A stretch of DNA of 64,000 nt, taken from NCBI GenBank assembly GCA_036346225.1, contig JARFIW010001082.1, positions 3,100,001-3,164,000 on the forward strand, in the 5' to 3' direction. A model generated the notes under the pieces. It saw only the letters and a program-made list of their open reading frames with translations, was not told the DNA's origin and did no database searches. Position numbers and translations under genes: made by a program. Positions 2,274 to 64,000 of the stretch are shown here, one piece after another (positions within the stretch are counted from its first letter, which is position 1; every line of letters begins with the position of its first letter). Source of the DNA: Platerodrilus igneus (lineage: Eukaryota; Arthropoda; Insecta; Coleoptera; Lycidae).

Positions 2274-4385
2274 CCAGAGGCTGACATAGATAGCGATCAT
2301 AACTTAGTTAAAATGAAGTGTAATCTAAAATTTAAAAAATTGAGAAAGGCTAAAAGAGAGGCATGGAATCTAGGTAAGCTCAATGATAGTGAGGTAAAAG
2401 AGGAATATAAATAAGTATTAGATAATAAGAACAGAAAGATAGCAATAGGAGGGAACGTAGAAAATAGATGGAAGAAATAAAAATGGCTGTACATGATACA
2501 GCAACACAGACTATAGATAAGAAAAAAAAGTAGAAGCGAGAAAACCTTGGGTAACAAAGGAGACATTAGATTTAATAGTGAATAGAAGAAAGCTTAAACC
2601 TTTCAGAGAATTGGATAGTGAAAGTAAGCAAAAAATATAATAGAGTTAGAAATAAGATTAGTACATGGATGGAGGAGAATTGTAAGGGAAAACAAGATGT
2701 TTTGAGAGTAGGTAAGACAGACAGGGCTTACAGGGCAGTTAAAAAGTTTTTCGGGGTAGATAGGAAAAATATAAAGGTATAAAAGATGAGAGTAATGAGC
2801 TTCTAATAAATAAAGTTGAGACAGCAGATAGATGGAAAAGAGATTTAAAAGATTCATATAAGGGAGACGATATGGATGAGTTCGAGAACCACCAAGAAGA
2901 GGATGTAGAAATAGGGTTCTCAATATTAAGAGAGGAATTTGATAGAGCTGTTAGGAATCTTAAACTAAATAAAGCGCCGGGGATAGACGATATAACCGCA
3001 GAATTAATAAAATATGCAAGTAAGAAAACTTTAGACAGACTTTATAAACTAGTAAGAGTAATATATGACACAGGTAGGGTCCCACTAAATTTCAAAAAAA
3101 AAAATATTATCCCAATCCAAAAAAAAAGCAGGAGCTGATAGGTGTGAGAATTTTAGAACGATTAGTTTAACTTCTCATGCTTCCAAAATACTAACAATAA
3201 TAATTAAAAATAGAGTAGAAGCGTTGACTGAGAATTATTTAGGCAAAGATCAATATGGTTTTCGTAAAGACAGAGGGACTAGAGAACCAATACTAATAAT
3301 TAGGGTAATTATCGAAAAAAGGTTACAAAAAAAACTCATTTTGCGTTTGTAGATTTAGAAAAAGCATTTGATAGGGTAAATTGAATTGTATGTTCAGCGT
3401 TTTACGAAAAATAGGAATCTCTCATAGGGATACAAAAATTATTTACAGTCTATATAAAAACCAAAGCGTAGTAATTAGATTTGATGAAATAGAAAAGGAA
3501 GCTAAGATTAGAAATGGTGTTAGACAGGGCTGTACACCATCTCCCTTGACTTTTAATGTTTATATTGAGGAAGCTTTAAACTTAGCTAGAGAGAGAACAG
3601 AGATACGCATTAGTGTACAGGTACAGAAAATAGACATGTTACATTTTGCAGATGATATAGCCATTATAGCAGAGTAACTATAGTATGAGAATTTACTCGG
3701 GAAAAACAAAGATAATGACAAGTGAGTTACAGCCTAGTTCTAAACCAAAATTAAAAATAGGTAATACCGAGTTAGAGGAGGTAGATGAATGTTGCTATTT
3801 AGGTAGTATAATTACAAAGGACGAACGTAGCAGAAGGGATATAGTAGCTAGAATAGTTCAAGCTAGAAAAATGTTTTTAAAAAAGAAAGACACTAATAGT
3901 TAATAGTATTAGTTTAGATAATAGAAAAAGTTTCTTAAAGTCGTACGTATGGAGCGTTCTACTATACGGTAGTGAGGCTTGGACAATTAAAGAAGTAGAT
4001 AAGAAAAAGATAGAAGCTTTTGAAACTTGGTGTTATAAGAGAATGTTAAAGATTAGTTGGACAGATAGAGTAACAAATGAGAAAGTTTATAAAAGGATAG
4101 ATGAGGAACCCTGTATGTGGAAACAATTAAAGGTCAGAAGAGATAGAATGGTAGGGTACTATTTAAGATATGAGGGACTATTTAGTAAAGTCTTAGATTA
4201 TAGACTACCAAATAAAAGTAGAGTAGAAAAACCTACACAAATCTATGTTAGTCAAATTATTAGAGATTTAGATTGTGAAAGGGTATGGTAGCCCTTGTTA
4301 AACTAGCTCAAAATAGAAAAGAATTTAGAGCTGCGTCAAACCGACCTTAAGTAAGTTCGAAAGAAAACAAAAAAAAAATGAATAA
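2274..4385 (+). pseudogene. RTE-like LINE, 5'-truncated copy 1 (reverse transcriptase)
   Basis: A non-LTR retrotransposon copy of the type whose endonuclease is often annotated as craniofacial development protein 2-like. It starts inside the endonuclease, at the ADIDSDHNLV motif (catalytic SDH) near 2283, and runs through a broken reverse transcriptase. Recognisable pieces are KAPGIDDITAELIKYA, a FRTISLTSHASKI block near 3150, DLEKAFDRVN near 3355, GVRQGC near 3520, the catalytic FADDIAIIAE near 3645, and the C-terminal EAFETWCYKRMLKISWTDR with RVTNEKV. Several frameshifts and stops separate these blocks. It ends with an A-rich tract near 4360-4380. It matches the second copy at 54795-58010 along its length, and it lies antisense to GGNBP2 inside intron 3, about 100 bp from exon 4. 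The exact clade is inferred. Confidence 0.85.
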
Positions 4386-10488: not shown

Positions 10489-11629
10489 CACGCGCAAGTT
10501 TATTTGGTCTCGACTATAATAACACATCTTTGCCTTTCCTCGGTACGTATGATACCGGAGCCACATCTTTTTGAAATGCAACATAGAACTGTTTTCAGCT
10601 CGATTTGTTGCTTGTAGAAGTTGAGGAGGGATTTCTTTTTGTTTTTCCGCAAAGTACCCACATATGTCAGTTTATATTCTTTGAGCAAATTGATTACAAG
10701 TGGGTAACTTCCAAACCAGTTATCGAATGCTAGAGTAGAAATTATTTAAGAAGAGCTTGCACTTCATCATGAGCACACGGCTAAAACGGTGTCAGATTAG
10801 TTCATTGTTTATAAATAGGCGTGTTCGTTCAGCATTTCAGTAGCGTACATAATTTGCTGTTAAATGTCAATTAACATGTGTGACTTTGACATTCTATATT
10901 TATTTCTCGCGCTTTCATAGGTTTCTTTGGGTTTTATGCCTTGCCTATTCGTGTATTTACCATGTGAATTTCAACTACCAACAAAATAAAACTTGATTTT
11001 AGAATATTTACTCTCTGGGAGTGTTTTCAAAACCCTAAAAATCATTAAATCCTCTGCGCCATTGACTTGCGCATATGTCAAATGATGTATAGGCTCTTCG
11101 TAAATAAAATCTACTCTACTTATGACTACTATTTTTTATTGGCCCCAGAGCCTCATAAATATATCCTACTGTCTATTACTTAAGTCGAAGGGACCTTCTG
11201 GTTGCTTACTAAAGTAAACTTCTTGATTCAGAACATAAACGTTCTTGCATCAACTAAAGCAAGTATTTTTATCCCATAATTTGCAGGGTTGTTTGGTATG
11301 AATTGGCGAAAACTACATCGACCTTTGAATGCCTCTAGTTTATCATCAATTGTAATATATTCTCTAGGAGTGTAAACCTCTAAACAATTTTCAATGAAAA
11401 TATCAAAAATTGATCGATGGCAGCAAGTTTGTCCAACTGGCGTCTCGCTTCCCCGAGACTCTCCATTATCAAAATGGAAAGTTTGTAAGAATAGACTAAA
11501 TCTTTTCTGGCACATTGTTGTTTTAAAAATATCTATTAAACCATCGTTTAAAAGTGATACAATGATCAAATTTACATTTACAATATAAATAAAAGCAATG
11601 TACTCACTTAAATAGCACCTTACCGCCAA
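10489..11629 (-). pseudogene. piggyBac-type transposase remnant
   Basis: On the minus strand, from 11629 downward, the frame contains MCQKRFSLFLQTFHFDNGES, then IFIENCLEVYTPREYITIDD and KLEAFKGRCSFRQFIPNNPA with NYGIKILALVDARTFMF, the central catalytic block of piggyBac transposases. The aspartates in TIDDKLEAF and ALVDART correspond to two of the family's catalytic residues. After a stop near 11228, pieces continue in other frames: VYFSKQPEGPFDLSNRQ, then DNWFGSYPLVINLLKEYKLT with YVGTLRKNKK (about 10720-10630), where the aspartate of DNWF is the third expected catalytic residue. Many stops and a rearranged middle (11020-11160) show it is dead. No terminal repeats or TTAA borders were confirmed. 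Confidence 0.8.
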
Positions 11630-12400
11630 ATCCCAGGGCCATCTCGTTCGTAGGTGGGACGAGAAGGATAACCAGGTAGAAGGAACACGAAGATAAGGTA
11701 GAAGAGAACCTACACCCTAAAAAGAGAAAAGACAGACACGCAACACCGGTAGATGTTCTTGGCTTGAGGTCTCGTAGATTAATGACGTCTAATCACACCG
11801 CGCGCATTTGCGCTATTCACTCTGCGCAGGCGCGACTCGGGGACGACGGAAATTGACAAGTTCATTAAAAATATTCGCGGAAATTTATTTAAATATTTAA
11901 TAATGTACATTGTCAAATTTTGGCATGTAACAACGTTCAGTAAGAACGATCGTCTTTTTGACGTCAACTATTGTTTTTATATGTTTTACTGTCTAAATGA
12001 AAGTAGAGAAAGGCAAAACAATTGTTATATTAAGAATTTACCCTAATTGACTTAAGATTAGGTTAATAGTAATTTAATAACAACACAATATGGAAAGGTA
12101 CAATCTAAAATGGTTATATCCTGTTTTTGTTTACCTAACGCGGATTCGATAACATTAATCGCGCAATACTAACATAAACATTACTTTTATTGTGAAATAT
12201 TTTGAAGGTTGAGTTTCAAGTTTAAATAAGGACATAATTTTCCTCACTCAGTTTTGTAATTTAGTACCTCGTGATTTTCTTTTAAGAACACATTTGCAGA
12301 ACTCTGTTTATAAGACTCTTGGTTTTTGCTATTGACGATTTCAAAATTAGAATCATCAATAAAGTTGATGAAATAATTGATTCACAAGACGTTCTTCAAA
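11630..12400. other. Unassigned region with CpG-rich patch
   Basis: No coding signal was supported. The stretch 11780-11850 is unusually CpG-rich for the window, with CGCGCGCATTTGCGC and TGCGCAGGCGCG. The latter resembles an NRF-1-type site. Cyclic-AMP-response-like TGACGT motifs lie at 11781 and 11957. It could be a promoter, but no gene is attached to it here. Confidence 0.3.
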
Positions 12401-12403
12401 ATA

Positions 12404-13775
12404 CAGGGAGTTTATAAAAGTACTACTTGATTTCAAAAAAATCATAATTAAAAAACGAAACCAGTAATAAACTTTCGGGTTTTGAACTTGAGTTCAGTAT
12501 ATTGTCAAGATCGTTTTGCTAATATTCGATCGCCGTGCGTGGCCTTGGAGCAAGCGTGGTGGGGGAAGAGTGCAACTGCTTTCGCCGACCGGCAGTCGGC
12601 ACTCATCAGTCATGGCTGCGCCACACAGAAAGCTCAGTATGTGTTTTGGTTTATTCAGTCGAGTTCAGTGATCACAGTTCAGCGTAATTATCGACGTGAA
12701 TATGGCGGTGATGCACCTACTAACAAAACTATTCTGCAGTGGTATAATCACTTTCGAGAAACAGGTAGTGTCTTAAAAATTAAGCCACCGGGTAGACCTT
12801 GAGTCTCTGAACAGAATGTGGAACGGATACATACATCTTGTATTCGTAGCCCTAAAAAGTCATTGGCAAGGTAAAGTTTGGAGTGCGGGATACCTAAGTC
12901 TACCGTGTACAAAGTAATGCGAAAGAGGCTTAAATTACGTGGGTACAAGATTCAACTCTGCATGAAATCAAGTCCAATGGTAAAGTAAAAAGATTCGATT
13001 TAGCAGTCTACATTTTGAACAGGATTGAAGAAAATGAGAACTTCATAGAAAATGTTATGTTTTCAGATGAGGCGACTTTTCACGTAAGTGGGTCTGTCAA
13101 CCGACACAACTGTAGAATTTGGTAGACCGCATGAATTCATAGATAATCAGCGATACTCTCCCAAAGTCAATGTTTGTTGTGGATTGATGCTTGATCGTAT
13201 CGTAGGACCTTTTATCTTCGCGGAAGAAACAATTAATGAGGATTTTTATTGTGCAATGCTTAAAGTATACATTTTCCCACAGATAGATGATATCAAACTA
13301 GAAAAGGGACCGATTGTCTTCCAACAAGACGGCGCGCCACCTCACCATAGCATCCGTGTCCGTGATGCGTTGAACTTGCGTTTCCCTGACAGGTGGATTG
13401 GTAGGCGTGGACCGATTGCATGGCCACCAAGGAGCCCAGATCTGACTCCACTAAATTTCTTTTTTTGGAGACATGTAAAAAAACATTGTTTATTCTGAGA
13501 AGATCCGTGACATTGCTTATTTGAGAGAGAGAGGATTGTTACAGCTGTATAGCATCCGTCACGCCTGATATGCTGCTGAATACCTGGGAAGAAACTAATT
13601 ATCGTTTAGACGTGGCCAGGGCAACAAATGGTGCACATATAGAATTTTACTTTAGGTATCAAAAAAAAACTTGAGAAAATTCTCTTTAATACTATATAGG
13701 TTTAATAACTATTATTTTAACTTTACTGTGTACAAATAAAACTTTAAATCAAGGAGTTCTTTTATAAACTCCCTG
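12404..13775 (+). mobile_element. mariner/Tc1-superfamily transposon with intact ends
   Basis: The left end is CAGGGAGTTTATAAAAGTAC and the right end is its inverse copy CAGGGAGTTTATAAAAGAAC, with TA on both sides (12402-12403 and 13776-13777), the target used by this superfamily. The 1372-bp length is normal for a complete element. It contains a broken transposase on the plus strand. Confidence 0.92.
12614..13650 (+). pseudogene. mariner-like transposase, frameshifted
   Basis: The N-terminal helix-turn-helix part reads AQYVFWFIQSSSVITVQRNY and TILQWYNHFRETGSVLKIK, ending PPGRP, followed by a stop and several frameshifts through 12800-13090. The catalytic core is open from 13088: a first aspartate lies just before it in a DEATFHVSG-like context, the second is in FQQDGAPPHH, and the third in RSPDLTPLNFFFW. 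Thirty-six residues separate the second and third aspartates. The C-terminal tail after 13495 has further stops, then a decayed WEE-Y-LDV-RATNGAHIEF motif near 13590-13650. The transposase is dead though the element ends are clean. The subfamily was not determined. Confidence 0.85.
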
Positions 13776-14623: not shown

Positions 14624-16504
14624 TGTTACGTTAATCGTGGCAGCACGTTGGGCGCCAAATTTATGATACGTTGGCTCGTAGCCGTGCGTAACACAAAGAA
14701 GATCAAAGAAATGACCGGGCTCAATCGGAGAGTGGGGGGGGGGGGTCGTAGAAAGCAGACTGACAGATAATGTATGCGGCGGTAAGGGGCTAGTGACAGT
14801 ACCTGCAAGCAAAATAGTTAAGCAAACCTGAAAAAAAAGAATAAGTATAGCAGCAATGAAAAGTCTAAATTATTCAGTACTTTGTAGAATGTAAAAAAAA
14901 GAAACTGTTTGGATAATCTATATAATATAACAACGGTAAAAGCAATACAAAAAAATGTTTAGTACAAAGTGAGGTAATATTGGGGAGTAGCAGAAACGTT
15001 TCCTCACACACCAATTAAACAAAAATCAGACAAAATGTTGACAAAAGATAAATAGATAAGACACAATTGGTATGAGTAATTCAGTAGTATTGATTTTTCT
15101 TTCTTTCTTTTTTTTCTATGTTTTAAAATAGCATGCAAGTCTATTGTAAAAGGTATCAGAACGACAAAGATATGGTAAAGCAACGAATAGATATTTAAAG
15201 TAATAACCAGTAGGAAATAGTTCAACTTACAAAAGTCCTTTAGCAACGCTTCCTTGCAACTGAAGTGTGGGATTCAACGATGTCCTGCACTAACGAAGCA
15301 TTTCACCCTTGACTGTGAGGGTGTTGATGGAACTTATCACACGTTACACTAATCACACCTACGTATTTCACTGGGGTTAGCAGCAGACAATATCACGCGT
15401 CGGAACTATGTAGCCTTGATAAATTTCTTGGTAATTCTATTTCCTAAGACAATAATTTCGAAATATTCTGTAGCACTAGTTTAATTTCAACTGGGACCAA
15501 ATGTATATTGTTTTCATAAACATCCCAAAAAGCAGTGAGAAACTTCAACCAATACCTTTGTAAGCCGGTAATCTGTTATATTTCGCAAATAACGAAATTT
15601 GCGCAAGTAATGATCTATTTTAGATTTTTTGTTGTTAGAAAATTCAGAAACTACAGTATCACTGTATTTAAATAATTCAAAGTATGCGCTACTCTGAGAA
15701 GGAAAGGACCGCGAAACTAGATTGCACACACCGTTTAAATATCAAAAGACAAAACAACTAAAAAGAACCATAACGGGTAAAGCACGTGTATCACTAAAGC
15801 AAGTCCGTCAAATGTTCCTTAAAACATTTATCTCCCAAGAAAAACAACTAAAAACAATTAGTACGACACGCGTAAGCAATAAAACCGTCCGTCAAATGTT
15901 CCGTAAACAAGCACGTGCGGTCGAGTAAAAACAAGTTCTACCACTTTTTATTTTCCCACAGAAGATCAACAAAAACAATTAGTAAAGCAACGCGTATCAC
16001 TCAGTCAATGTTCCGTAAAACGCACGACAAGTTCTACAACTTTTATTTCAAAAGAAACTCAACTAAAAACACAATTAGTAAAGCAACACGGAAACAATAT
16101 TTTTAACGTAATTAATATCTAGGAACGAAGAGCAAACTACAGCTCTTCACTCTAATCTGTTTATATCAACTCGTTGTTACCATAACCTCTTATCGACTAT
16201 TATCTCCAGTTCGATAATAACATAAGGAACACAATTTATACGACGGCCAGACAAGAACGATGCAATCTATAATTAATTACAAGCTGTTTAACCTTCACTC
16301 CTTGGGAATTTATTTATTAATGAGAATCAATCTTTAATTTATCTATCTTTAATTAATACACACGAGTTAAATTGCATACAAATCTGAAAACGATTCGAAA
16401 GTATTTACTTTATACAAACAGCGATCCCAAAGAAACGATGTATTTTTAAGTAGGCTAACAGAAAGGGAGCGTAAAATGTTACGCTATAAAAAATGCCCGT
16501 TACA
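14624..16504 (-). repeat. 3' LTR of the non-autonomous element
   Basis: 1881 bp. Relative to its partner it carries an extra block of about 40 bp at 14641-14680 that includes CACGTTGGGCGCCA, a copy of the primer-binding site. It also has about 300 bp (14765-15058) that the partner lacks, bounded in this copy by AGAC on both sides. Within the LTR, at 15740-16100, a run of degenerate 80-115 bp repeats shares motifs such as CAACTAAAAACAATTAGTA and GTCAAATGTTCC. Confidence 0.85.
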
Positions 16505-18462: not shown

Positions 18463-20275
18463 TGTTACGTTAATTCGTGGCCGTGCGTGACACAAAGAAG
18501 ATCAAAGAAATGACCGGGCTCAATCGGAGAGTAGGGGGGGGGGTCGTAGAAAGCAGACACAATTGGTATGAGTAATTCAGTAGTATTGATTTTTCTTTCT
18601 TTCTTTTTTTTCCTATGTTTTAAAATAGCATGCAAGTCTATTGTAAAAGGTATCAGAACGACAAAGATATGGTAAAGCAACGAATAGATATTTAAAGTAA
18701 TAACCAGTAGGAAATAGTTTAACTTTCAAAAGTCCTTCAGCAACGCTTCCTTGCAACTGAAGTGTGGGATTCAACGATGTCCTGCACTAACGAAGCACTT
18801 CACCCTTGACTGTGAGGGTGTTGATGGAACTTACTACGCTCAAGGTCCCGGGTTCGAATCCCGACACGGTCCGCTTGAAAAATGTTAGGCGAGCATTTTT
18901 CACAAAAATACACCCTCGTTCGGATGAGAGGTAAAATGGAGGTCCCGTGTGTGTGTTGTCACGCACGTTAAAGATCCCTACCTTGCTTGGAACAGCAAGG
19001 GTTCGGCAAAATTCCAAATTTTTCAGGCAAAAAAAACTCGCCTCCTGGCCAATGTAGTACCTTCGGGTGGAGCATTGGAAAATCACATGTAATGTTGATG
19101 GAACTTATCACACGTTACACTAATCACACCTACGTATTTCACTGGGGTTAGCAGCAGACAATATCACGCGTCGGAACTATGTAGCCTTAATAAATTTCTT
19201 GGTAATTCTATTTCCTAAGACAATAATTTCGAAATATTCTGTAGCACTAGTTTAATTTCAACTGGGACCAAATGTATATTGTTTTCATAAACATCCCAAA
19301 AAGCAGTGAGAAACTTCAACCAATACCTTTGTAAGCCGGTAATCTGTTATATTTCGCAAATAACGAAATTTGCGCAAGTAATGATCTATTTTAGATTCTT
19401 TGTTGTTAGAAAATTCAGAAACTACAGTATCACTGTATTTAAATAATCCAAAGTATGCGCTACTTTGAGAAGGAAAGGACCGCGAAACTAGATTGCACAC
19501 ACCGTTTTAATATCAAAAGACAAAACAACTAAAAAGAACCATAACGGGTAAAGCACGTGTATCACTAAAGCAAGTTCGTCAAATGTTCCTTAAAACATTT
19601 ATCTCTCAAGAAAAACAACTAAAAACAATTAGTACGACACGCGTAAGCAATAAAACCGTCCGTCAAATGTTCCGTAAACAAGCACGTGCGGTCGAGTAAA
19701 AACAAGTTCTACCACTTTTTATTTTCCCACAGAAGATCAACAAAAACAATTAGTAAAGCAACGCGTATCACTCAGTCAATGTTCCGTAAAACGCACGACA
19801 AGTTCTACAACTTTTATTTCAAAAGAAACTCAACTAAAAACACAATTAGTAAAGCAACACGGAAACAATATTTTTAACGTAATTAATATCTAGGAACGAA
19901 GAGCAAACTACAGCTCTTCACTGTAATCTGTTTATATCAACTCGTTGTTACCATAACCTCTTATCGACTATTATCTCCAGTTCGATAATAACATAAAGAA
20001 CACAATTTATACGACGGCCAGACAAGAACGATGCAATCTATAATTAATTACAAGCTGTTTAACCTTCACTCCTTGGGAATTTATTTATTAATGAGAATCA
20101 ATCTTTAATTTATATATCTTTAATTAATACACACGAGTTAAATTGCATACAAATCTGAAAACGATTCGAAAGTATTTACTTTATACAAACAGCGATCCCA
20201 AAGAAAAGATGTATTTTTAAGTACGCTAACAGAAAGGGAGCGTAAAATGTTACGCTATAAAAAATGCCCGTTACA
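18463..20275 (-). repeat. 5' LTR of the non-autonomous element
   Basis: 1813 bp, containing a 259-bp SINE insertion at 18834-19092 with its own 15-bp target duplication. It lacks the 300-bp block present in the other LTR. The same degenerate tandem repeats are found at about 19515-19870. On the minus strand it begins TGTAACGGGC and ends CGTAACA. Confidence 0.85.
18834..19092 (+). mobile_element. tRNA-derived SINE, 5'-truncated, inserted in LTR
   Basis: The 259-bp unit begins CTACGCTCAAGGTCCCGGG, carries a polymerase III B box (GGTTCGAATCC), and has a tRNA-unrelated body with GCACGTTAAAGATCCC and GGTTCGGCAAAATTCC, ending ATCACATGTAA. The 15-bp target TGTTGATGGAACTTA is duplicated at 18819-18833 and 19093-19107. 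The A-box half of the head present in the full-length copy at 35002-35297 is missing. Confidence 0.88.
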
Positions 20276-26998: not shown

Positions 26999-27369
26999 TC
27001 ATTACTAGTTAAGCTTCAATCTGCATGGTGGCGCTAAACTTAATTGTAATTGTTTACTTACAGTGACGCTAGTGATGGGACTCGAGTCGATTTTTTGTAC
27101 TCAAGTAACTCGATTGTAATTTCTATTTGACTCGAGTAGAAATTCGAGTCGAGTTAAAACTCGGTTCGATATTGAACTCGAGTTAAAAAGCCTAGAAATG
27201 GGACTCGAGCCAATATTTTTTACTCGAGTCAATTTATTTACTCGAGTGACGCAAATATAAATTCTCTCTTATTTGAGTTGATACTAAAACCGTTGATTGA
27301 AGTATTCAATCAACGCTAAAACTCGGTCACAGCGTGGCAGCGCCGTGTCTTTTATTGCTTTATACGTAT

Positions 27370-27999
27370 TGTTGCGAGCTACTACTAGGCAACCCATCAA
27401 ACACACAAGCGCTGTAGACTCTGCATACCTTTCAGGATACGAGAATTCTTTCAGCAATCAATTACATACAAACGCTCGAGGCACGGCGTATTCTCAAGGA
27501 TTCCAGAATTGTTCTAGAAATTACGGGAGCATGAGTCATCCTTGTAATCCAGAGTATATACAAAGAATATTAACTATAGAATTCTATAGTTAATATTCTT
27601 TGGTATATATAAGACCGCTAATGAATGCAAGAGTTAGTCTATTCTTGAATGTCTAATATAAATTATATCGTGTAAAGTAATAGTAGTTTGGAGCTTTAGA
27701 AGTATATATAAACGTGATATGCTGTGTCTAATGTACATGCAGCTTGTTGTAGTATACATAAATAAATAGAAGTGCATAAACAAATAGTTGTATTAGTGGA
27801 CCTATGGTAGAGAAGTTAGTTTAAGAAGATATTAGTGCTTGTCAATTCATTAGTGTAGTAGTGCTTCATTGTTAAGTGGACTGAAAACATCTATAAATAA
27901 GGCATATACTGTTAATTAGACTTGTGAACAGTAAGTAATAAAGACGTTTGTTATTACTTGTTTTAAATTAAAGAAACGCGGTAGTAGTAGCCCGCTACA
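27370..27999 (+). repeat. Gypsy 5' LTR
   Basis: 630 bp from TGTTGCGAGC to CCCGCTACA. It is identical to the 3' LTR except for one substitution in TAGTTGTATTAG and an extra 49 bp at 27561-27609, consisting of a 42-bp palindrome and a 7-bp target copy. Confidence 0.95.
27561..27602. repeat. Perfect 42-bp palindrome inserted in LTR
   Basis: CAAAGAATATTAACTATAG followed by AATT and the exact inverse of the first half, centred on an EcoRI site GAATTC. GTATATA lies on each side (27554-27560 and 27603-27609), while the other LTR has a single GTATATA at this position. Confidence 0.95.
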
Positions 28000-28075
28000 C
28001 TGGTGTCAGGCATTTGTGGGGTATATAGTGATTAATTTAAAACACAAGTCTAAAGACATTTAAGTAGTTTGTATA

Positions 28076-29290
28076 TGCCAGTTACAAGAAATCGAAGTAA
28101 AATGGAGGCAGAAAGTTTAATGAATTTCCTTAAGGATTTTAAATCCGGTATAGAAGAAAAGTTAAACGAAAATGCTGAGAAAATGGAGGAGAGGTCGGCT
28201 AAACTGGAAGTGACACTCGGTGAAAATTTAGTGAGGTCAGTTGAACTGGAATCAAACCTTACCGAAAGGTTAACTGAAAATGCTAAGAAAATAGAAGAAC
28301 GGTTTAGTGAAAACGCGATGAAAATGGAAGAGTTGAATGAAAAGACGGCCACGTTAGAACAAAGATTAATAGCAAGCTCCATTGCATTGAAAGAAGATGT
28401 CACTGTACAGGTAAAACAGTTGAGCAAAAGTTGGACTGTAAATTGGTAAAAATGGAAGAAGATATGATGAGGCTGCAAGAACAGGTGATTTCACTAACAA
28501 CGCGGCCACTTGAATTACCAAGCCAAGTTGTTAATCAGAACATTCCAGAAATAAGAACCATGGAAAGAAGCGAGTCCATACCGTCTAAATTTAAAGTGAA
28601 ACCACCCACATTCGATGGCAAAACACCCTGGCCCACATATTTGAAACAATTTGAAGCTGCTGCAATAGCCAACGGTTGGTGCAACACAGAGAAGGCTATC
28701 TCCTTAATAGTGGCCCTACGGGGGGAGGCTCTTAACATCTTACAAACAATTCCCGATCACCAGCAGAATGATTACGGCCTCTTAACATCAAAGCTTGAGA
28801 TGAGATATGGAGATGCCCACCTTCAACAGGTTTACCACGCACAAGTTAAGAACCGCTTGCAAAAGACAAGTGAAAGCCTGCAAGAATTCGAAGCTGACAT
28901 CGCCAGATTAGTTAGATTGGCATATCCAACGGCACCAGATAGTTTCCTCGAACAACTGGCTGTACAAACATTTGTGGATGGCGTTAAAGATGGCGAAATA
29001 CAGCAAGCGCTAAGATTAGCACGGCCAAAATGTTAGATGACGCGCTGGCTCATGCGCTTGAATTTGAAGCAGCTAAGCAGACATCACACAGGATGGGTCA
29101 CCGGTCTGCTTTAGAGGAACCTGATCAAGCTCAGAACAGCATAGATGAAATAATCAACCGTGTGTTTGAAAAGCGAAAGGCAGAAAGGCTGAAAAGACTA
29201 CGACCGCGGAGATGGCGTCTACGATGCTGGAGCTGCGGTGAAGTTGGCCATATGCAGAGACGCTGTACTCAACCAAAGAAACAACCGGTT
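28076..29290 (+). pseudogene. Gypsy gag, frameshifted
   Basis: Structural protein that packages the element RNA. The N-terminal 120 residues (MPVTRNRSKMEAESL onward) are a charged heptad-rich coiled coil. A frame change at about 28431-28449 leads to the retrotransposon gag domain with KFKVKPPTFDGKTPWPTYLK, ALRGEALNILQTI and TFVDGVKDGEIQQALRLA. A second frame change at about 29030 leads to the basic region and a CCHC zinc knuckle CWSCGEVGHMQRRC (about 29225-29267). The breaks are single-base indels with no loss of flanking similarity, so they may be sequencing errors or recent mutations. Confidence 0.88.
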
Positions 29291-32200
29291 GTGCCAAAGC
29301 TGGTCCATGTAAGGGGCGAACTTTCGACAGCACAGCGTAGTGCCCCGGAGATTATCATCCGTGCTGCATCGTCGGTGGAAAGTCTGGACAGCATTTATAT
29401 CGATGGTAGAATTAATGGTAGGGTTGTCCGATTACTTGTGGATACAGGAGCGACAAGAACTATTGTGAGACCAGATTTGGTTGGTCGTGGAAAAGTGCTA
29501 CCTGTATCGGTGTGTCTCCGAACGGCAAATGGTGAGAAGATTGGTACTCATGGAGAGACTGCCGTTATGTTGACAATTGGGGACAAATTAATTAATCATC
29601 GAGTGTTGGTGGCTGAAATTACAGAAGAAGTGATCTTGGGAATGGATCTCATGAGAGAATATGGGTTTCATGTAAACATGAAAGAAAATGTGCTTCGGAT
29701 AGATGATGATGAGATTCCATTTCAAGGTAGGAGTAACCAGACGATGCAAGTACGAATGATTTGCGATATGAAAATACCCGAGAAGGCGGAAATGATAGTA
29801 ATGGGACGCCCGGATGGTACGCTCCGGGAAGGACAAGTATGCATGATGGAAGCAACTGAATCGGGAATGGGTCAGGAGGGACTTCTGATTGGAAGAACGC
29901 TGGTAAAGTCTCGAAATATGGTACCAGTAAGGGTGCTGAACATTAACCCTCATACAGTGACCCTGAAGAAAGGCATGATTGTGGGAAGTTGCATTCCAGT
30001 ATGTCATATTAAACGTTGTATGGACGACACGAAAAATAAACCAACCAACGGTTGCTCACAGAAATTGCTGGATATGTTGATACCCTCGTGTCAAGGATTA
30101 AATGGCGACCAACTGGGCAAGGTAAAAGAACTGGTCGGACGATATCGAGGTGTGTTTGCACTGGATGATAGTGAGAAGGAAGGACGAATGTTGTGCAACA
30201 CAAGATCAATACTGGAGATGCGCAACCGATAAGACAACACCCAGGCGGCTTCCTTTGGCAAAACGTAAGGAAGCTGAGCAAATTATCACCGATATGGAAG
30301 AACAGGGAGTGATTGAACCCTCGAATAGTCCATGGGCATCCCCGGTAGTGCTTGTCAAGAAAAAGGACGGGTCGACAAGGTTTTGTGTAGACTACCGGCG
30401 GCTTAACAATGTAACAAAGAAAGACAGCTATCCTTTGCCCAGAATTGATGACACCTTAGATACTCTTTCCGGATCTAAATGGTTTTCGACCTTGGACTTG
30501 AAAAGCGGATACTGGCAGGTAGGCTTGGAGCCAAACGATAAAGAAAAGACTGCCTTTACAATTGGAACTGGATTATGGCAGTTCAAGGTCATGCCATTTG
30601 GATTATGCAATGCCCTGCTACTTTTGAACGATTGATGGAGTCGATACTGCGTGGACTGTCTTGGAAGACTTGTCTGGTGTACCTGGACGACGTGATAGTG
30701 TTAGGCCGGTCTTTTGAAGAACACCTTAAGAACCTAGAGGAGATATTCCAAAGATTACGCGGGCAAACCTTACATTGAGCCCCAAGAAATGTCACCTATT
30801 TGGAAAAGAGGTGAAATACCTAGGACATGTCGTTTCAGAGACCGGAATAAAAGCTGACCCTGACAAAATAAAAACGGTACAAGAGTGGCCTACACCAGCA
30901 GATATACACCAACTACGCAGTTTTCTAGGATTGTGCACATATTACCGACGTTTTATACTTGGGTTTGCAAACATTGCCAAACCGTTAACGAAATTAACCG
31001 AAGATGGACAAGAATATGATTGGAATGACGACTGTCACAGTGCATTTGAACAACTGAAACGGCTACTGGTTACAGCACCAATTTTGAGTTATCCACGGAT
31101 GGAGGAAATTTGTGTTGGATACCGATGCCAGTAACACAGCTATAGGAGGCGTTCTTTCTCAAGTGCAGGACGGACAAGAAAAAGTTATTGGGTATTTCAG
31201 CAAGGTCTTGTCGCGGCCAGAAAGGAACTATTGTGTGACAAGAAGGAGCTGTTGGCCGTCGTCAAATCCGTAGAGCACTTTTATAAGTACTTATACGGCC
31301 GTAAATTCCTGTTGAGAACAGACCATGCTGCACTGAAATGGTTATTGCAGTTTCGAAATCCTGAAGGGCAAGTGGCAAGGTGGATAGAGCGGCTGCAGGA
31401 ATATGACTTTGATACAGAACATCGTGTAGGAACTAGCCATCGGAATGCTGACGCTCTATCAAGGAGACCTTGTCCGGTGGACTGCAATCATTGCTCCAAG
31501 ATGGAAGAGAAAATAAGTGTCATCCATAGAATGACGGTAACCGATGATACTTGGCAACCCGAAAGAATGCGAGAAGACCAGGAGAATGACGCCGAATTGG
31601 GACGAATTATTGAGTGGAAAAATAGAGGACAACGACCAGCTTGGGAAGAAATTAGTATTTTAAGTAGGAGCTTGAAGGCATACTGGGCACAGTGGGACTC
31701 CTTGATGATGGATAATAGAATCTTGAAACGACGCCTGGAATTTGAAGATGGCACTGAGAGACTTCAAGTGATAGTGCCGAGAAGCAGAGTGCCGGAAGTG
31801 TTGCAGCACTTGCACGACGGTATTTCCGGAGGGCACTTTGGCGTGAAAAGAACTCTCGAAAGAGTGAGAGAAAGATTCTATTGGGTGAACTGCAAAGAAG
31901 ATGTGAAGGAGTGGTGCCGGAAATGTGAATTGTGTGCCTCTGCAAATGGCCCGGTCTCAAAACGGAAAGCCCCAATGAGACAGTATAACGTGGGGAATCC
32001 TTTTGAGAGGGTAGCCATTGATATAGCTGGTCCGTTTCCGGAATCAGAGAAGGGAAATAAATACATCTTGGTTGCAATGGATTATTTTACCAAATGGCCG
32101 GAGGCATATGCTATACCTAACCAAGAAGCCGAGACGGTTGCAGATGTACTAGTGAAGGAGTTGTTTTGTCGCTTTGGAGTTCCGTTGGAATTACACTCCG

Positions 32201-33066
32201 ATCAAGGTCGGAACTTCGAATCAGCATTGTTTCAAAATGTCTGCAAGCATCTTGGAATCAGGAAGACTAGAACCACGCCACTTCATCCCCAATCGGATGG
32301 AATGGTTGAAAGAATGAACAGGACGTTAGGGAAGTACCTGGCCAAAGTTGTCTCTGAACATCAACGAGACTGGGACCAATATCTACATTTGTTCCTACTG
32401 GCGTACCGATCTTCGGTACATGACAGCACAGGGTACTCGCCCGCTTGCGTAATGCTAGGACGTGAATTGCGGCTACCATGTGATCTTCGGTTTGGATTTA
32501 AACCTGGAGAAGAGATCGCAGGTGAAGATTACGTTAGTAAGCTTCGTGAAAGATCAAATAGTATTCACGAAAACGTCCGAAAGAATATACAGGCAGCAAG
32601 CGATCGAATGAAATCACAATATGACACGAGAGCACAAGAAGGTGGTTATCAACCTGGAGATTTGGTGTGGTTGTATAATCCACAAAGAAAACGTGGATTG
32701 TCGCCAAAACTACAAAGACAATGGGAAGGGCCGTACGAAGTGTTAAAAAGGATTAATGATGTAGTGTACCGGATCAGAAGATCCCCTCGTGGTAAACCGA
32801 AAGTGGTACACTTTGACCGTTTAACATCCTACGCTGGCAACAACCAGGAAGACTCGAATAATGATAATGGTGTTCGGCAAGTTATTAATCATGAGCCAAA
32901 TGTAGATTTTGAGAGCTTTATGGCGGCGTATGGTGGTTCCGCTAAAGCGAGATTTGGCGTTGTTGTTGAAAACAGCAAGATCTGTTTAGAGCACCAGAAG
33001 AGTATTCCTTGCACATTGCGTAGCTCAAGATTTGGCAATGTCAAGGGGAATAGCTGTTGTTTTTAA
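29291..33066 (+). pseudogene. Gypsy pol: protease, RT, RNase H, integrase
   Basis: Domains in order: aspartic protease with LLVDTGATRTIV (about 29430-29465); reverse transcriptase with RFCVDYRRLNNVTKKDSYPL, FSTLDLKSGYWQV and catalytic YLDDVIV (about 30680); RNase H with LDTDASNTAIGG (about 31120) and LRTDHAALKWLL (about 31318); integrase with an HHCC finger (HLHD...GGHFG...CRKCELC, about 31810-31945); a DDE core with AIDIAGPFP, HSDQGRNFESA and GMVERMNRTLG; and a GPY/F-like module WEGPYEVLKRINDVVYRI. Frame changes occur near 30200, 30610, 30770, 31115 and 31230. From 31231 to 32960 the integrase frame is intact. The order RT-RNase H-IN and the GPY/F-like module place it in Ty3/gypsy. Confidence 0.93.
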
Positions 33067-33545
33067 GAAAAAGTTTGGATGTGTGGATGAATTAGTACAA
33101 CAGCAGCCAACTGTAGGAAAAGCTTTGGTTCTTCAAGATAAAAATCGTTATGTTTACTATCTGGTCACCAAAAATTCTTCATGGCAAAGACCTAGTTATG
33201 GACATCTATGGGAGGCTTTGCTAAATCTTAAGGCGCAGATGATGGAGAATGGAGTAACAAGACTAGCGATGCCCAAGTTGGGCTGTGGACTGGATCACTT
33301 AGATTGGAGGATAGTCCGAAATATGCTAGAAGTAGTTTTCCAGGGAACCAACGTCCAGGTCCTTGTTTGTTGTTTTCAACCGGTTGCCTACCAAGACCAA
33401 GAAAAGAGTGTTGACTGTTATTTCCAACGACGTGGTGGATGCACCAGAGGAGATAGCTGCCGATACCGTAATCAGTCATCGAATTGGCGCCAAAATGTAT
33501 CTACAGTTACGAGACGTAACGGTTTTAAAGAGGGGGCAGTGTTGC
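32960..33545 (+). pseudogene. Macro domain (OARD1/TARG1-like) plus CCCH-like finger
   Basis: Downstream of integrase a separate frame (open from 33032) reads MSRGIAVVFKKKFGCVDELV, then RYVYYLVTKNSSWQRPSY, NGVTRLAMPKLGCGLDHLDW and NVQVLVCCF. This matches the macro domain of OARD1/TARG1, enzymes that remove ADP-ribose from acidic protein residues. From memory, the human catalytic pair is Lys84 and Asp125. A lysine in VTKN and an aspartate in GCGLD occupy the equivalent places. Sequence typical of the domain's N-terminus lies just upstream of 33032 in shifted frames, so this copy has one or two frame changes there. After the domain, CYFQRRGGCTRGDSCRYRN (33416-33475) has CX7CX5CX3 spacing like a CCCH finger with N in place of H. 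The frame then runs into the 3' LTR. It could be a C-terminal extension of pol or an expressed accessory product. Confidence 0.85.
33527..33539 (+). promoter_or_regulatory. Gypsy polypurine tract
   Basis: AAAGAGGGGGCAG lies immediately before the TG of the 3' LTR, the expected plus-strand primer. Confidence 0.8.
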
Positions 33546-34120
33546 GAGCTACTACTAGGCAACCCATCAAACACACAAGCGCTGTAGACTCTGCATACCT
33601 TTCAGGATACGAGAATTCTTTCAGCAATCAATTACATACAAACGCTCGAGGCACGGCGTATTCTCAAGGATTCCAGAATTGTTCTAGAAATTACGGGAGC
33701 ATGAGTCATCCTTGTAATCCAGAGTATATATAAGACCGCTAATGAATGCAAGAGTTAGTCTATTCTTGAATGTCTAATATAAATTATATCGTGTAAAGTA
33801 ATAGTAGTTTGGAGCTTTAGAAGTATATATAAACGTGATATGCTGTGTCTAATGTACATGCAGCTTGTTGTAGTATACATAAATAAATAGAAGTGCATAA
33901 ACAAATAGTTGTGTTAGTGGACCTATGGTAGAGAAGTTAGTTTAAGAAGATATTAGTGCTTGTCAATTCATTAGTGTAGTAGTGCTTCATTGTTAAGTGG
34001 ACTGAAAACATCTATAAATAAGGCATATACTGTTAATTAGACTTGTGAACAGTAAGTAATAAAGACGTTTGTTATTACTTGTTTTAAATTAAAGAAACGC
34101 GGTAGTAGTAGCCCGCTACA
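33540..34120 (+). repeat. Gypsy 3' LTR
   Basis: 581 bp, the version without the palindrome insertion. It contains a TATA-like GTATATATAAGACC (about 33724-33737) and several AATAAA signals (for example near 33881 and 34059). Confidence 0.93.
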
Positions 34121-35001
34121 GTATATAATATTTAATATAGAATATCTTTTTTATTATGAAAAACGCAGTAATGTGTAATAAATAAATACACATTCTGTTT
34201 GTATAGGTGCAGCCGCAGTTAGTGAATGAAGTACTATCAATTCCATCACTTTTGAGTTCGGGACACCCTTTAAGTTCTATACACTTTCTCACAGACTAAA
34301 ATAATAATAATAACAATAACGTTCTGTATATAAAATATCGGTAAAAGAAAAGGGAAAATTGTATCTTTCCGAGATATGATTCACTTTCATTCGGACCAAA
34401 CCACAGAAAGAAGATCAATTGGGACAACACGCTAAATTCACGAACTTTGAGTGTTAAAAATTCAAGTTGAGTGGAAAACCCACCCAACTTAACTTAAGAA
34501 TTGAAAAAATCATAACTCGATAGTCGATTATAAACTCGAGTTGCAAATCGGTTCGAGTTACAAGGGGACTCGAGTTGCGAGTTGACTCCAGTTGCACGAG
34601 TTGATTCGAGTTTCAAGTCGACTCGAGTTGCACAGTCACTTGACTCGATTCACACGAGTAGTGTTGTCACTCGAGTCACTCTATTAATTTGCGACTCGAG
34701 TCCCATCACTAAGTGACGCATCTCTTGTATTATTGGTCTGTGATTATGACTGCGAATGTCCGGTGATGGAAAGCAACCGTTTTATGCTCGTCACCAATAC
34801 TTATTTTTATTTTGTTTATTATTCGGTTATTAAATCTGACAATTAGTACTTTAGTTTTATTTATTCTGCCGCTCGATCCACCCTACAATCCTAAACTTTA
34901 AAATTATCACAATAAGCTTGCTAACTTCTGTATATTGGCATATGAGTCAAATCAAATAATTCTGAATCGCAAATTAAGCATGGAACATGAGGATATATAC
35001 A

Positions 35002-54794: not shown

Positions 54795-57700
54795 CTTTGT
54801 TTTCGAACTTACTTAAAGTCGGTTTGACGCAGCTCTAAATTCTTTTCTATTCTGAGCTAGTCTAAAAAGGTCTACATACCCTTCACAACCTAAATCCCTA
54901 ATAATTTGACTAATATAGCTTTGTCTAGGCCTTCCTACTCTATTTTTATTTGGTAGTCTATAATCTAAAACTTTACTAAATAGTCCCTCATGTCTTAATT
55001 GGCGCCCTATCATTCTATCTCTCCTGACCTTCAATTGTTTCCACATACAGGGATCCTCACCTATCCTTCTATAAACTTCCTCGTTTGTTACTCTATCTGT
55101 CCAACTAATCTTTAACATTCTCCTATAACACCAAGTTTCAAAAGCTTCTTTTCTTTCTTTTCTTTTTCTTATCTACTTCTTTAATTGTCCAAGTCTCACT
55201 ACCGTATAGTAGAACGCTCCATACGTACGACTTTAAGAAACTTTTCTATTATCTAAACTAATACTATTAGCTATTAGTAAGTTTTCTTTTTAAAACATTT
55301 TTCTAGCTTGAGCTATTCTAGCTACTATATCCCTTCTGCTACGTCCATCCTTTGTAATTATACTACCTAAATAGCAAAATTCATCTACCTGCTCTAACTC
55401 GGTATTACATATTTTTAATTTTGGTTTAGAACTAGGCTGTAACTCACTTGCCATTATCTTTGTCTTTACTGAATTAATTCTCATACTATAGTTACTCCGT
55501 AGTATCTCATCTAAAATATTTAAAACTCTCCAACTCTTTTCTAGACTCTGCTATAATGGCTATATCATCTGCAAAACGTAACATGTCTATTTTCTGTCCC
55601 TGTACACTAATACCTATCTCTTTTCTCTCTCTAGCTAAGTTTAAAGCTTCCTCAATATAAACATTAAAATCAAGGAGACAGTATACAACCCTGTCTAACA
55701 CCATTTCTAATCTTAGCTTCCTTTTCTATTTCATCAAATCTAATTACTACGCTTTGGTTTTATATAGACTGTAAATAATTTTTCTATCCCTATGAGAGAT
55801 TCCTATTTTCGCAAAACCCTGAACATAACAATCCAATTAACCCTATCAAATGCTTTTCTAAATCTACAAACGCGAAATGAGTCTTTTATTTTTGTAACCT
55901 TTTTCGATAATTACCTAATCATTTGTATCGGTTCTCTAGTCCCTCTGTCTTCTGAAAACCATATTGGTCTTCGCCTAAATAATTCTCAGTCAAAGCTTCT
56001 ACTCTATTTTTAATTATTATTGTTAGTATTTTGGAAGCATGAGAAGTTAAACTAACCGTTCTAAAATTCTCACACCTATCAGCTCCTGACTTTTTGGGAT
56101 TGGAATAATATTTTTTCGAAATCTATTGGAACCTCACCTGTGTCATATATTACATTTACTAGTTCATATAATCTGTCTAAAGTTTTCTGACTTGCATATT
56201 TTATTAATTCTGCGGAATATCGTCTATCCTGGCGCTTTATTTAATTTAAGATTCGAACAGCTCTATCAAATTCCTCTCTTAATATTGAGAACTCTATTTC
56301 TACATCCTCTTCTTGGTCGTACTCTAACTCATCCATATCGTCTCCCTTATATAAATCTTCTAAATATCTTTTCCATCTATCTGCTACCTCAACTTTATTT
56401 ATTAGAAGCTCATTATTCTCGTCTCTAATACCATTACATTTTTCCTATCTTCCCAAAAACTTTTAACTGCCCTGTAAGCCCTGTCTGTCTTACCTACTCT
56501 CAAATCATCTTGTATTCCTTACAATTCTCCTCCATCCATTTATTTCTAGCTTTTCTACACTCATGTACTATCTTATTTCTAACTTTATTATATTTTTGCT
56601 TACTTTCACTATCCAATTCTCTGAAAGGTTTAAGCTTTCTTCTATCCTCTATTAAATCTAATATCTCCTTTGTTACCCACGGTTTTCTCGCTTCTATTTT
56701 TCTTACCTATAGTCTGTGTTGCTGTATCATGTACAGTCAGTTTTATTTCTTTCCATCTATTTTCTACATTCCTCCTACAGCTATCTCTTTGCTCTTATTA
56801 TCTAATACTTGTTTATATTCCTCTTTTACCCTACTATCATTAAGCTTACCTAGATCCCATCCTCTCTTTAGCCTTTCTCAATTTTTGAATTTTAGTTTAC
56901 ACTTCATTTTAACTAAGTTATGATCGCTATCTATGTCAGCCCCTGGATAACTACGACAGTTTTAACTTGGTTTCTAAATCTTTGTTTAACTAGAATATAA
57001 TCTATTTGTTATCTAGCCCTATCACCTGGGGCTTTCCAGGTATATCTTCTCCTAACATGTTGTTCGAATAGGGTGTTTACAGTTACTAATCTATGTTCCT
57101 GGCAAAACTCAACTAATCTTTCTCCTCTATCATTTCGTCTGCCATACCCGAATTTTCCTACCATTTTTCCCTCACTACCTTCTCCCACTGACGCATTAAA
57201 ATCGCCCATAACTATTAAATTCTCATCTCATTTTACTTTTCTCACTATACTATTTATATCCTCGTATACCTTTTCTACTTCCTCATCCTCGTACTGAGTT
57301 GTTGGCATGTAAACCTGTACTAAAACAGTGTCTGTGGGTTTTGTACTCAATCTAACCATAATTATTCTATCACTAAATTGTAAGTACTCTTTAACTTTAT
57401 GCCCTAATCTTTTACCTAACACTATTCCTACCCCTGCCTGTCCATTAGTTGAAGAAGTTGTAATTATTCTATAATTATCTTTCCAAAAGTCATTACTATC
57501 TGGCCATCTCACCTCACTAATACCTAAAATGTCCAGTTTTTCCTTTCTCATTTCGACTAATAAATTCGTTAACTTATCTACTCTAAGTAATGACCTTACA
57601 TTCCAAGTCCCTATCACTAAATCGAACTGTTGTTTTATATTCTTACAATGACGAGCCCTAAGTACCCCCTCCCGGAGATCCGAATGAGGGAGTATTTTAC

Positions 57701-58010
57701 CTCCGGACAATAATTTTACTTGTGAGCTCTCCATCATAAGTATTTCGTGTTTTAGGCCACGCACACCTGGGAAATATTGTGGTAGGCTCCCATATCTTTC
57801 CACAATGCAGTTTTTAAAGATTTTAGCAAAAAGCCGTATCCATCACGGCCAACCCCCAACAAGCTTGTAAATTATTGAGGATCGCCCGAGACCAACCAAC
57901 CCTCCTCCAATATCTGTTAGCCAGCAAGGCTGCTGCCCCTTGCTGCGCCTTTTAATCGCCTTTTACGATAAGCAGGCTTACTATAGTAGTATTCTTTATC
58001 CCCTACTATA
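54795..58010 (-). mobile_element. RTE-like LINE, nearly full-length copy 2
   Basis: Runs on the minus strand from a 5' leader near 58010 to the A-rich 3' end near 54795. It contains the whole endonuclease (57803 to about 56935) and the reverse transcriptase, in which the FADDIAIIAES motif (near 55570) and C-terminal ISWTDRVTNEEVYRRIGEDP are clear. The reverse transcriptase is broken by several frame changes, so the copy is inactive. Its 5' leader contains GCGCAGCAAGGGGCAGCAGCC and a stretch found at the start of many elements of this type. An (AT)n tract lies just outside at 58018-58046. Confidence 0.85.
57009..57803 (-). pseudogene. RTE endonuclease domain
   Basis: Metal-dependent endonuclease that nicks target DNA to prime reverse transcription. 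From 57803 the frame reads MERYGSLPQYFPGVRGLKHE, then LVIGTWNVRSLLRVDKLTNL and LDILGISEVRW with the catalytic E, then GQAGVGIVLGKRLGHKVKEY, and runs open to 57228. After a frame break it continues 57209-57009 with MGDFNASVGEGSEGK (catalytic D, N), FCQEHRLVTVNTLFEQH and RRRYTWKAPGDRAR before a stop. The SDHNLV motif follows at about 56935. All expected active-site blocks are present, but one frame change and a stop split them. Proteins of this kind are often annotated as craniofacial development protein 2-like. Confidence 0.88.
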
Positions 58011-62323: not shown

Positions 62324-63672
62324 TTAAATGGGTTCACATCCTAAACTTTCATCCCCATCATCAGACTCATCGCCTGAGGATAAGTATCCATCTGAATTAT
62401 CACTATTATTATCAACCCGTATAATTAGGTCTTGAACCTCGTCTATTACATTTTCTCGTTCCATATAATCCTTTTCAATTTTCTCTACGTGCAGACATAC
62501 TTTAGTCTACTCGTTGATTCCAATATTTTATATGTTCTTCTGCCAACTTCCATACATCATCTATTTTGAAGGTTACATTACATGCAGCGACACGGTTTTT
62601 AAGTAACGCCCAAATCATCTCGATAGGATTTAGTTCTGGGTGATATGGAGGTAAACGCAATACTACATGACCATGTTCTGCCAGTAGCTGGTCAATTACA
62701 AACAGCTGATGAACAGGTTTATGTGCCTTAATTTTGGAATATAATTCAGGCTTGGTTTCCTTACATTCAAAGAGGATATTTCGTTCCTTCAACCATTTCT
62801 GCATATCTGTTTTCTTCCAACTTGAAGTAGGATTAGGATGCACAAGAACATTATGATATGACGCATTGTCTATCACAAACACTGAATTTGGTTCCAAATT
62901 TGGTATTAACTTTTCTTGCAGCCACTTTTTATAATTGCGATGATTCATGTCATCGTGATAATCCCCAGTTTGCAAACCAGACTTAAATATCAATTCTGCA
63001 TTTGGAACAAACGCATTTTTTCCACCTGCATGAACAATTATCAAATGCTTCCCTTTTGAAACTGGCGATTTCAAACCCTTGGTGGTGCCGTCATCCCAAC
63101 ACTTTGTTTCACCTGTGCAGATATGTTTCATCGTTATACACAATGCTTCTGCCCTCTTCTTTATACTTACTAAGATTTTTCAAAAATATGGTGCGCTTTG
63201 CCCTTATATTGCTTTGTTCAACAAGAATTTTCCTGTTATCTACAGTTCTCTTCCAACGAAACCCTGCTCTTACAACAATTTTTCTGAACGAACCTAATTT
63301 TCCCGTGTAATGAGGGCAATCATTTTTAAATTCGTCAAACACTAACTTCAAAGTCGGTCTACGTTCATGTATTGCTGCAAACCGATACATAACGGTTCTT
63401 AGAATCTCTTCGTCAAATCCATTCACTGTTGACTTAGGGCTTGGTTTATTTACGGTTTTCCTTGGTGAACTGAACTTGCTGCAGGGTGGTTTGTTTGTAC
63501 CTTCCTTTACAATTCTTTGCACCGTCCGCAATGACACACCTGTTGCTTCAGCCACGCACTCTTGCAAATTGTTCAGGTTGGAGGCGCCCGAATCTTTTAT
63601 GCGTTTCAAATATTGAAACACATTAAAAACAATCTGTCGTCCTTGACTATGAATCACCTCCTTCTTATTCAT
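62324..63672 (-). pseudogene. Tc1/mariner-type transposase, DD82E spacing, nearly intact
   Basis: The start ATG at 63672 opens MNKKEVIHSQGRQIVFNVFQ. A helix-turn-helix part follows with VAEATGVSLRTVQRIVKEG. The catalytic core has the first aspartate in IVYNDETYLH, the second in VFVIDNASYHN and the glutamate in YHPELNPIEMIWALLKNRV. I count exactly 82 residues between the second aspartate and the glutamate, which matches the DD82E (Sailor) group of the IS630-Tc1-mariner assemblage as I remember it. One frame change near 63120 (just after YLH) and another near 62505 break an otherwise open 450-codon gene. The natural acidic tail (DNNSDNSDGYLSSGDESDDG) ends at a stop at 62324. It is low in other damage, so it is young or the breaks are sequence errors. 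Confidence 0.85.
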
Positions 63673-64000
63673 AATATTACTCTAAAAAATATCATAATTA
63701 ATCATTGAACGGACATTCTTTTTAAATACACTGCTGATGAAATTAACTATCAGTTAGTTTTGAAAAAAACTGTTTTGATGACTATTACTTGATACAAATA
63801 TTAAAACGGAAAACTAGAAACAATAAGACCTTGATAAGAGCGAGAATGACAATGACAGTTACGGTTCACATTCGGTATATACAGTATTGGGATCCGTTGA
63901 GTATGTGCACTGTTGCCACAGCAAATAATTACGGATAAAGAAACTACGAACCTAGAATTGTTTATAAGTAAAAACAAGTAAAAGCTCCGATATTATATGG
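63673..64000. other. 5' flank of the DD82E transposase
   Basis: No gene. On the minus strand CAATACTGTATATACCGAAT (63869-63888) could belong to a terminal repeat, but no inverse copy was found at the other side. Confidence 0.3.

Follow-up and report, generated by a model that had tools for sequence, protein, structure and literature searches.

In a 64,000-nucleotide stretch of the genome of the lycid beetle Platerodrilus igneus (assembly GCA_036346225.1, contig JARFIW010001082.1, positions 3,100,001 to 3,164,000 of the forward strand; hereafter the window), a Ty3/gypsy retrotransposon carries, directly behind its integrase, a macro domain of the type found in the human ADP-ribose hydrolase TARG1 (OARD1, C6orf130), followed by a zinc finger of the CCCH class. 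The domain is homologous to TARG1 and shares its fold, keeps the catalytic lysine and aspartate, stands in frame behind integrase in many copies, occurs in several beetle genera, forms one clade, and is more strongly conserved than the linkers around it. In our preferred reading, to which we give a probability of about one half, a lineage of beetle Ty3/gypsy elements captured a TARG1-type hydrolase as the C-terminus of Pol, where it would act on the nucleic acid or the integration of the element. That a TARG1-type domain has been captured and selected is almost certain; that it is catalytically active is probable.

The frame encoding the domain (32990-33733, forward strand) holds all three motifs by which a first-pass annotation of the window, made from the bare sequence, had recognised the core of a macro domain. 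It scores 27 bits against the Pfam Macro profile (cut-off 22), and phmmer against the chains of the PDB aligns its residues 6-126 (33005-33367) with human TARG1 at E=5.8e-35, the next class of macro domain being DarG at 1.3e-4. Foldseek with the predicted structure of the window copy also returns TARG1 first (E 3.2e-14). Once PDB chain positions are renumbered to author numbering, K61 of the frame aligns with human K84 and D102 with D125, bearing out the catalytic pair proposed in the first pass; D125 we take to be the partner of K84 in the human enzyme. Passages of PMC8501950 describe K84 as the catalytic lysine of TARG1. The element domain differs from human TARG1 (PDB 4J5Q/R/S), its top match in sequence and fold, in its position behind integrase, in its N-terminal linker and C-terminal CCCH finger, and in a GCG loop that varies in some relatives. 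For six of seven element proteins scanned, Pfam Macro falls below its cut-off or is unlisted, and such weak scores may be the reason why the domain was overlooked earlier. The first pass had given the domain a frame of its own between the end of integrase and the 3' long terminal repeat (LTR). The place holds, the separate frame does not: the macro domain starts in the Pol frame at about 32945, the window copy drops that frame between there and about 33005, and in 33 of 48 loci selected by their macro domain the frame is open back beyond the integrase end. At its other end the macro frame runs on into the 3' LTR.

The finger behind the macro domain had gone unnoticed in the first pass. Its ligands are spaced C-x7-C-x5-C-x3-H, and a 33-residue query matches chains of CPSF4 (best E 8.5e-8); the likeness to CPSF4/CPSF30 (Yth1) covers those 33 residues, the element having a single finger and no other CPSF parts. 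The Pfam zf-CCCH profile is sub-threshold for the window copy (18.1 against 20.5) and at or above cut-off for three related proteins (P0012, P0039, P0178). Since the predicted local distance difference test score (pLDDT) of this part is <50 in both structure models, the CCCH fold is put forward on the strength of its sequence.

Searched with the macro protein, the 2.7-Gb genome yielded 12,685 first-look candidates; of the 150 that were scored, all matched at 92-100% identity, and 48 of these, the window copy included, were examined. A second sample was selected by integrase (99 loci scored, 70 examined). At least three copies, that of the window among them, belong to both samples, and each sample represents the best-scoring part of the family. 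The macro domain is present in 69 of the 70 integrase-selected loci, the remaining one (L094) ending at the end of its contig, and among the loci examined its presence is family-wide rather than peculiar to one insertion. The longest open frame among the matches listed in the macro search reaches 1653 amino acids. Where the frame is lost between integrase and macro domain (15 of the 48 macro-selected loci), 13 of the 15 fall into two spacing classes, of 8 and 5 loci, and the lesions therefore look inherited. The pocket residues, tallied copy by copy, persist: among 47 macro-selected copies the aspartate and the three cysteines of the finger are found in all, the lysine and the histidine in 45 each, and the aspartate is kept in 51 of 52 integrase-selected copies. 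Neither of the two contrary outcomes named in the first pass, a domain confined to one copy or a lost pocket, was seen. That the domain is an adjacent or read-through host OARD1 gene, or a chimera of assembly, is vanishingly improbable; the frame break of the window copy is all that was found to favour it, and against it the macro domain lies inside the LTRs, recurs throughout the integrase-selected loci and in other beetles, and coexists with a distinct host-type TARG1 locus in the same genome.

Relatives in other species extend these observations. The unbroken integrase-macro frame of one copy (L013) retrieved 228 proteins, and the best 120 of the 228 were used; these matches comprise 90 from Aromia moschata, 19 from Molorchus minor, one each from Harmonia axyridis and Gonioctena quinquepunctata, five proteins from other sources, one record labelled Erysiphe pulchra and three sawfly proteins without integrase. 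Together with three proteins from a first search and L013 itself, the element-type matches form a tally of 121 proteins, in which the lysine is present in 121 and the aspartate in 120, the first two cysteines of the finger in 121, the third in 120 and the histidine in 119, the missing ligands being positions that the matches do not cover. The Erysiphe pulchra record (P0013), an element of beetle type under the name of a powdery mildew, groups with Harmonia and is likely a contamination by way of a mildew-feeding ladybird. Across ten element proteins, two near copies among them, pairwise identity averages 0.59 for the macro domain and 0.52 for the CCCH finger, compared with 0.33, 0.34 and 0.30 for the flanking stretches and 0.81 for the integrase core. 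This excess over the linkers is the strongest sign that the macro domain has been under long-term selection.

Near-invariance of the catalytic pair also bears on a different role for the domain. Parts of PMC3605345 describe chromoviruses as carrying an extra domain, the chromodomain, at the C-terminus of integrase, the very position that macro domain and CCCH finger occupy here in its stead; in seven element proteins a Pfam scan at E up to 0.01 found no chromodomain. Given this shared place, and a fold match to the macro domain in ALC1/CHD1L, a remodeller, an integrase-borne macro might bind ADP-ribose on chromatin or where DNA is broken and steer integration as a chromodomain does, with catalysis secondary. 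We consider this quite unlikely, as a mere reader would have no need of the lysine and aspartate that are almost invariant among the matches listed.

Within the P. igneus genome the case for selection, which the first pass had proposed to examine through the ratio of nonsynonymous to synonymous change (dN/dS, omega), is suggestive. The first sample, picked by macro similarity and with one indel copy excluded, is biased low: omega is 0.16 for variants found in at least two copies against 0.55 for singletons (Fisher p 0.0003). The calculation was repeated on integrase-selected copies, 34 of 69 being usable, and mirrored on integrase. Omega for the macro domain is then 0.25 for shared and 0.45 for singleton variants, and for integrase in the macro-selected copies 0.13 for shared variants. 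Purifying selection on the macro domain similar to that on integrase, perhaps weaker, would account for these values; the shared omega spans 0.16-0.25, the higher value not lying significantly below that of singletons.

Several observations weigh against our reading. The contrast between shared and singleton variants in the integrase-selected copies has p 0.062 (p 0.23 with the first trimming), and the pairwise omega of the macro domain there is 0.27-0.34. In these copies, where the macro domain was not itself selected for, its frame is whole in just 25 of 69, with splits at recurrent places, and glutamine replaces the catalytic lysine in five of 51 (lysine in 46); in the macro-selected sample arginine replaces it in two of 47. 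Integrase is kept somewhat better than the macro domain (p 0.061). The GCGLD loop ahead of the aspartate differs by species among the matches listed, its GCG being Ala-Ser-Gly in all 90 Aromia proteins, Ser-Cys-Gly in 19 Molorchus and two Gonioctena proteins, and Gly-Cys-Ser in Harmonia. Finally, substrate and site of action are conjectural, and that the domain is directed at the nucleic acid or integration complex of the element itself, in preference to some other target, can be proposed only tentatively.

The broken frames might be taken to mean that the domain is a captured piece with no present function, drifting in the Platerodrilus genome: macro frames are split or gapped in 30 of 69 integrase-selected copies and in whole subfamilies, and the frame is lost just ahead of the domain in the 15 loci noted above. 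Breakage is however not peculiar to the macro domain, because a whole integrase is found in 26 of the 48 macro-selected copies and not in the other 22, again with recurrent splits. Drift would moreover hardly leave active-site residues and zinc ligands in place when the elements are some 50-60% identical there, far more than in the linkers, and a passenger without function is very improbable. Lesions at the same place in integrase or macro domain are common to several copies among L001-L118, pointing to defective subfamilies spreading in trans or to systematic errors of assembly. In this family, defective copies and subfamilies are numerous and may have been mobilised in trans.

Insects, beetles included, possess TARG1-type genes of their own. 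In a tree of 39 rows the thirteen element macro domains form one clade (100/100) and ten beetle host domains another (97/90); the element clade joins the beetle hosts at 86/90 in this tree and other insects in another. An earlier tree of 51 rows, 12 more, had long branches (one row about 10 long) and required two changes to explain the element rows; in 85% of bootstraps one sufficed. The topology of the 39-row tree is consistent with a single ancient capture of a TARG1-type gene, whichever the donor. A beetle TARG1 gene of today is not favoured as the source, the element clade lying outside the beetle host clade in that tree.

Host-type proteins such as those of Tribolium (P0147), Gonioctena (P0170) and Diprion (P0035) share the TARG1-type macro domain; they are unlike the elements in being about 550-1300 amino acids long with one or two macro domains and in falling outside the element clade. 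A scan of P0147 and P0170 found no further Pfam domain. Two TARG1-like stretches per chain occur in host-type proteins of sawflies and tenebrionids (P0034, P0035, P0131-P0133, P0147). The host-type locus of P. igneus itself (L119, G000:C861:4987565-4988518) is similar to host proteins beyond the macro domain, and its best matches among the fetched proteins are mostly from beetles. By eye it keeps lysine and aspartate, but both its GIA loop and its GCG loop are strongly altered and its branch in the tree is long; it could represent the domain of a pseudo-enzyme, or one domain among several. Five proteins from short contigs of the European Nucleotide Archive (P0006-P0010) are of TARG1 type, most with a similar tail; in a first, smaller tree they are the closest neighbours of the element clade, in the 39-row tree they are not.

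A TARG1-type macro domain also occurs in another gypsy-type pol, a Logan contig protein of 1406 amino acids (P0179), where it has RNase H ahead of it and integrase behind it (residues 728-855); no CCCH finger was detected there by domain scan. A shared origin of this domain with that of the window family is neither shown nor rejected (p-AU 0.18 in the approximately unbiased test). Because it sits elsewhere in pol, a second, independent capture is suggested. Such repeated usefulness, were it confirmed, would also suit a cytoplasmic counter-defence, in which the macro domain removes the ADP-ribose that antiviral poly(ADP-ribose) polymerases (PARPs) place on Gag, RNA or host factors, much as the macro domains of alphaviruses and coronaviruses do. 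Such a use against host ADP-ribosylation was the view of the first pass; fusion to integrase would suit a part in integration, or on the nucleic acid of the element, just as well. Retention of the hydrolase residues agrees with such a role, and viral macro domains have the same fold. Fish epsilon-like endogenous retroviruses are likewise said, in a passage of PMC4977317 citing Basta et al. 2009, to have gained macro domains as additional open reading frames; the likeness, that of an LTR retroelement with a captured macro domain, is one of description rather than of macro class, and the carriers there are fish retroviruses. Counter-defence in the cytoplasm is nonetheless unlikely, for the domain belongs to Pol, adjoins integrase and takes up the sequence as far as the 3' LTR, where an envelope gene would find no space, an arrangement that favours work in the nucleus. 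Two scans of viral contigs, by single sequence and by alignment, gave no confirmed macro relative.

Our preferred reading, that the captured hydrolase serves the element at integration, can be put as a sequence of steps. On the simplest account, a beetle Ty3/gypsy lineage would have acquired a TARG1-type ADP-ribose hydrolase once, long ago, and retained it at the C-terminus of Pol, immediately after integrase and followed by the CPSF4-like finger. Inside the particle the macro domain would then accompany integrase to the nucleus, where the finger may tether it to the RNA or cDNA of the element. There it could strip ADP-ribose added by host PARPs from the ends of the element's nucleic acid, from integrase, or from proteins at the gapped integration site, and thereby unblock integration and gap repair. 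Removal of ADP-ribose from DNA by TARG1 is described in passages of PMC8501950 and PMC11102865.

The window insertion itself (Table 1) has LTRs that begin with TG and end with CA, identical at 580 of 581 bases aligned by BLASTN of both ends, apart from a 49-nt insertion, and a 4-bp target duplication, GTAT, at 27366-27369 and 34121-34124; by both signs it is young. Between the LTRs, Pfam and open frames place a zinc knuckle, protease, reverse transcriptase, RNase H and integrase in the order of Ty3/gypsy elements (Metaviridae), up to and including a GPY/F-type C-terminal domain. The coding parts are scattered across several frames, by which the copy is defective at several places, including just upstream of the macro domain. 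A related protein (P0014) matches Ty3 Gag-Pol, its closest solved relative, at 4e-45. The 49-nt insertion is a nearly perfect palindrome confined to the 5' LTR, and was therefore acquired after insertion or during reverse transcription; it is perhaps a very short miniature inverted-repeat transposable element. Elsewhere in the window, two pairs of direct repeats (15094-15621 and 18591-19392, 100% and 95%) suggest another young LTR or repeat element, and five frames, at 13088-13498(+), 62502-63681(-), 11228-11716(-), 57228-57842(-) and 3881-4291(+), are by eye presumably mariner/Tc, other DDE and piggyBac transposases and pieces of endonuclease and reverse transcriptase from long interspersed nuclear elements.

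Table 1. Parts of the Ty3/gypsy element, in window coordinates.
Feature	Position	Strand	Evidence and remarks
5' LTR (TG...CA)	27370..27999	+	BLASTN; carries 49-nt near-palindromic insertion ~27557-27605
gag region, frame-broken (28054-28449, 28341-29036)	28054..29036	+	Retrotrans_gag, weak hit at E=0.0065
CCHC zinc knuckle and aspartic protease	28988..30232	+	Pfam zf-CCHC 1.1e-4, gag-asp_proteas 7.2e-12
Reverse transcriptase and first part of RNase H; window copy frame-broken	30126..31134	+	Pfam RVT_1 6.7e-17
End of RNase H and integrase, then linker and first strand of macro domain	31135..33066	+	Pfam
Integrase, H2C2	~31774-31947	+	Integrase_H2C2 7.5e-21
Integrase, rve	~31999-32289	+	rve 8.8e-19
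Integrase, GPY/F-type SH3	~32656-32826	+	Integrase_p58_C 5.2e-14, SH3_Tf2-1 8e-07
TARG1/OARD1-type macro domain	32990..33370	+	Pfam, phmmer, Foldseek; Lys 33170-33172, Asp 33293-33295
CCCH zinc finger, CPSF4/CPSF30-like	33416..33472	+	Final ligand Asn in window copy
Purine-rich tract ahead of 3' LTR, overlapping frame end	33527..33539	+	Read from sequence
3' LTR	33540..34120	+	BLASTN; macro-CCCH frame open inside LTR until 33733

Macro open reading frames in fish endogenous retroviruses and an extra domain at the C-terminus of chromoviral integrase were already known from the passages cited above; what appears to be new is a macro domain and CCCH finger behind a Ty3/gypsy integrase, an arrangement of which we found no description among the titles and abstracts listed, a scope outside which most subscription papers and preprints fall. 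For annotation the finding carries a warning, in that some beetle gene models called C3H1-type or CPSF-like are pieces of this element. As a natural fusion of a TARG1-type hydrolase with a putative nucleic-acid-binding finger, it bears on the question of protein as opposed to DNA or RNA targets of TARG1-type enzymes. More broadly, retrotransposition and ADP-ribosylation are here connected by an enzyme that the element has kept, in a family that is very abundant. A bolder generalisation, which we offer as possible though rather doubtful, is that a gypsy lineage spread across beetles depends on an integrase-tethered eraser of ADP-ribose with an RNA/DNA-binding finger of its own, which clears ADP-ribose off the nucleic acid or integration complex of the element, and that ADP-ribosylation would be a standing barrier raised by insect hosts against retrotransposition, overcome at least twice by TARG1-type capture at two places in pol.
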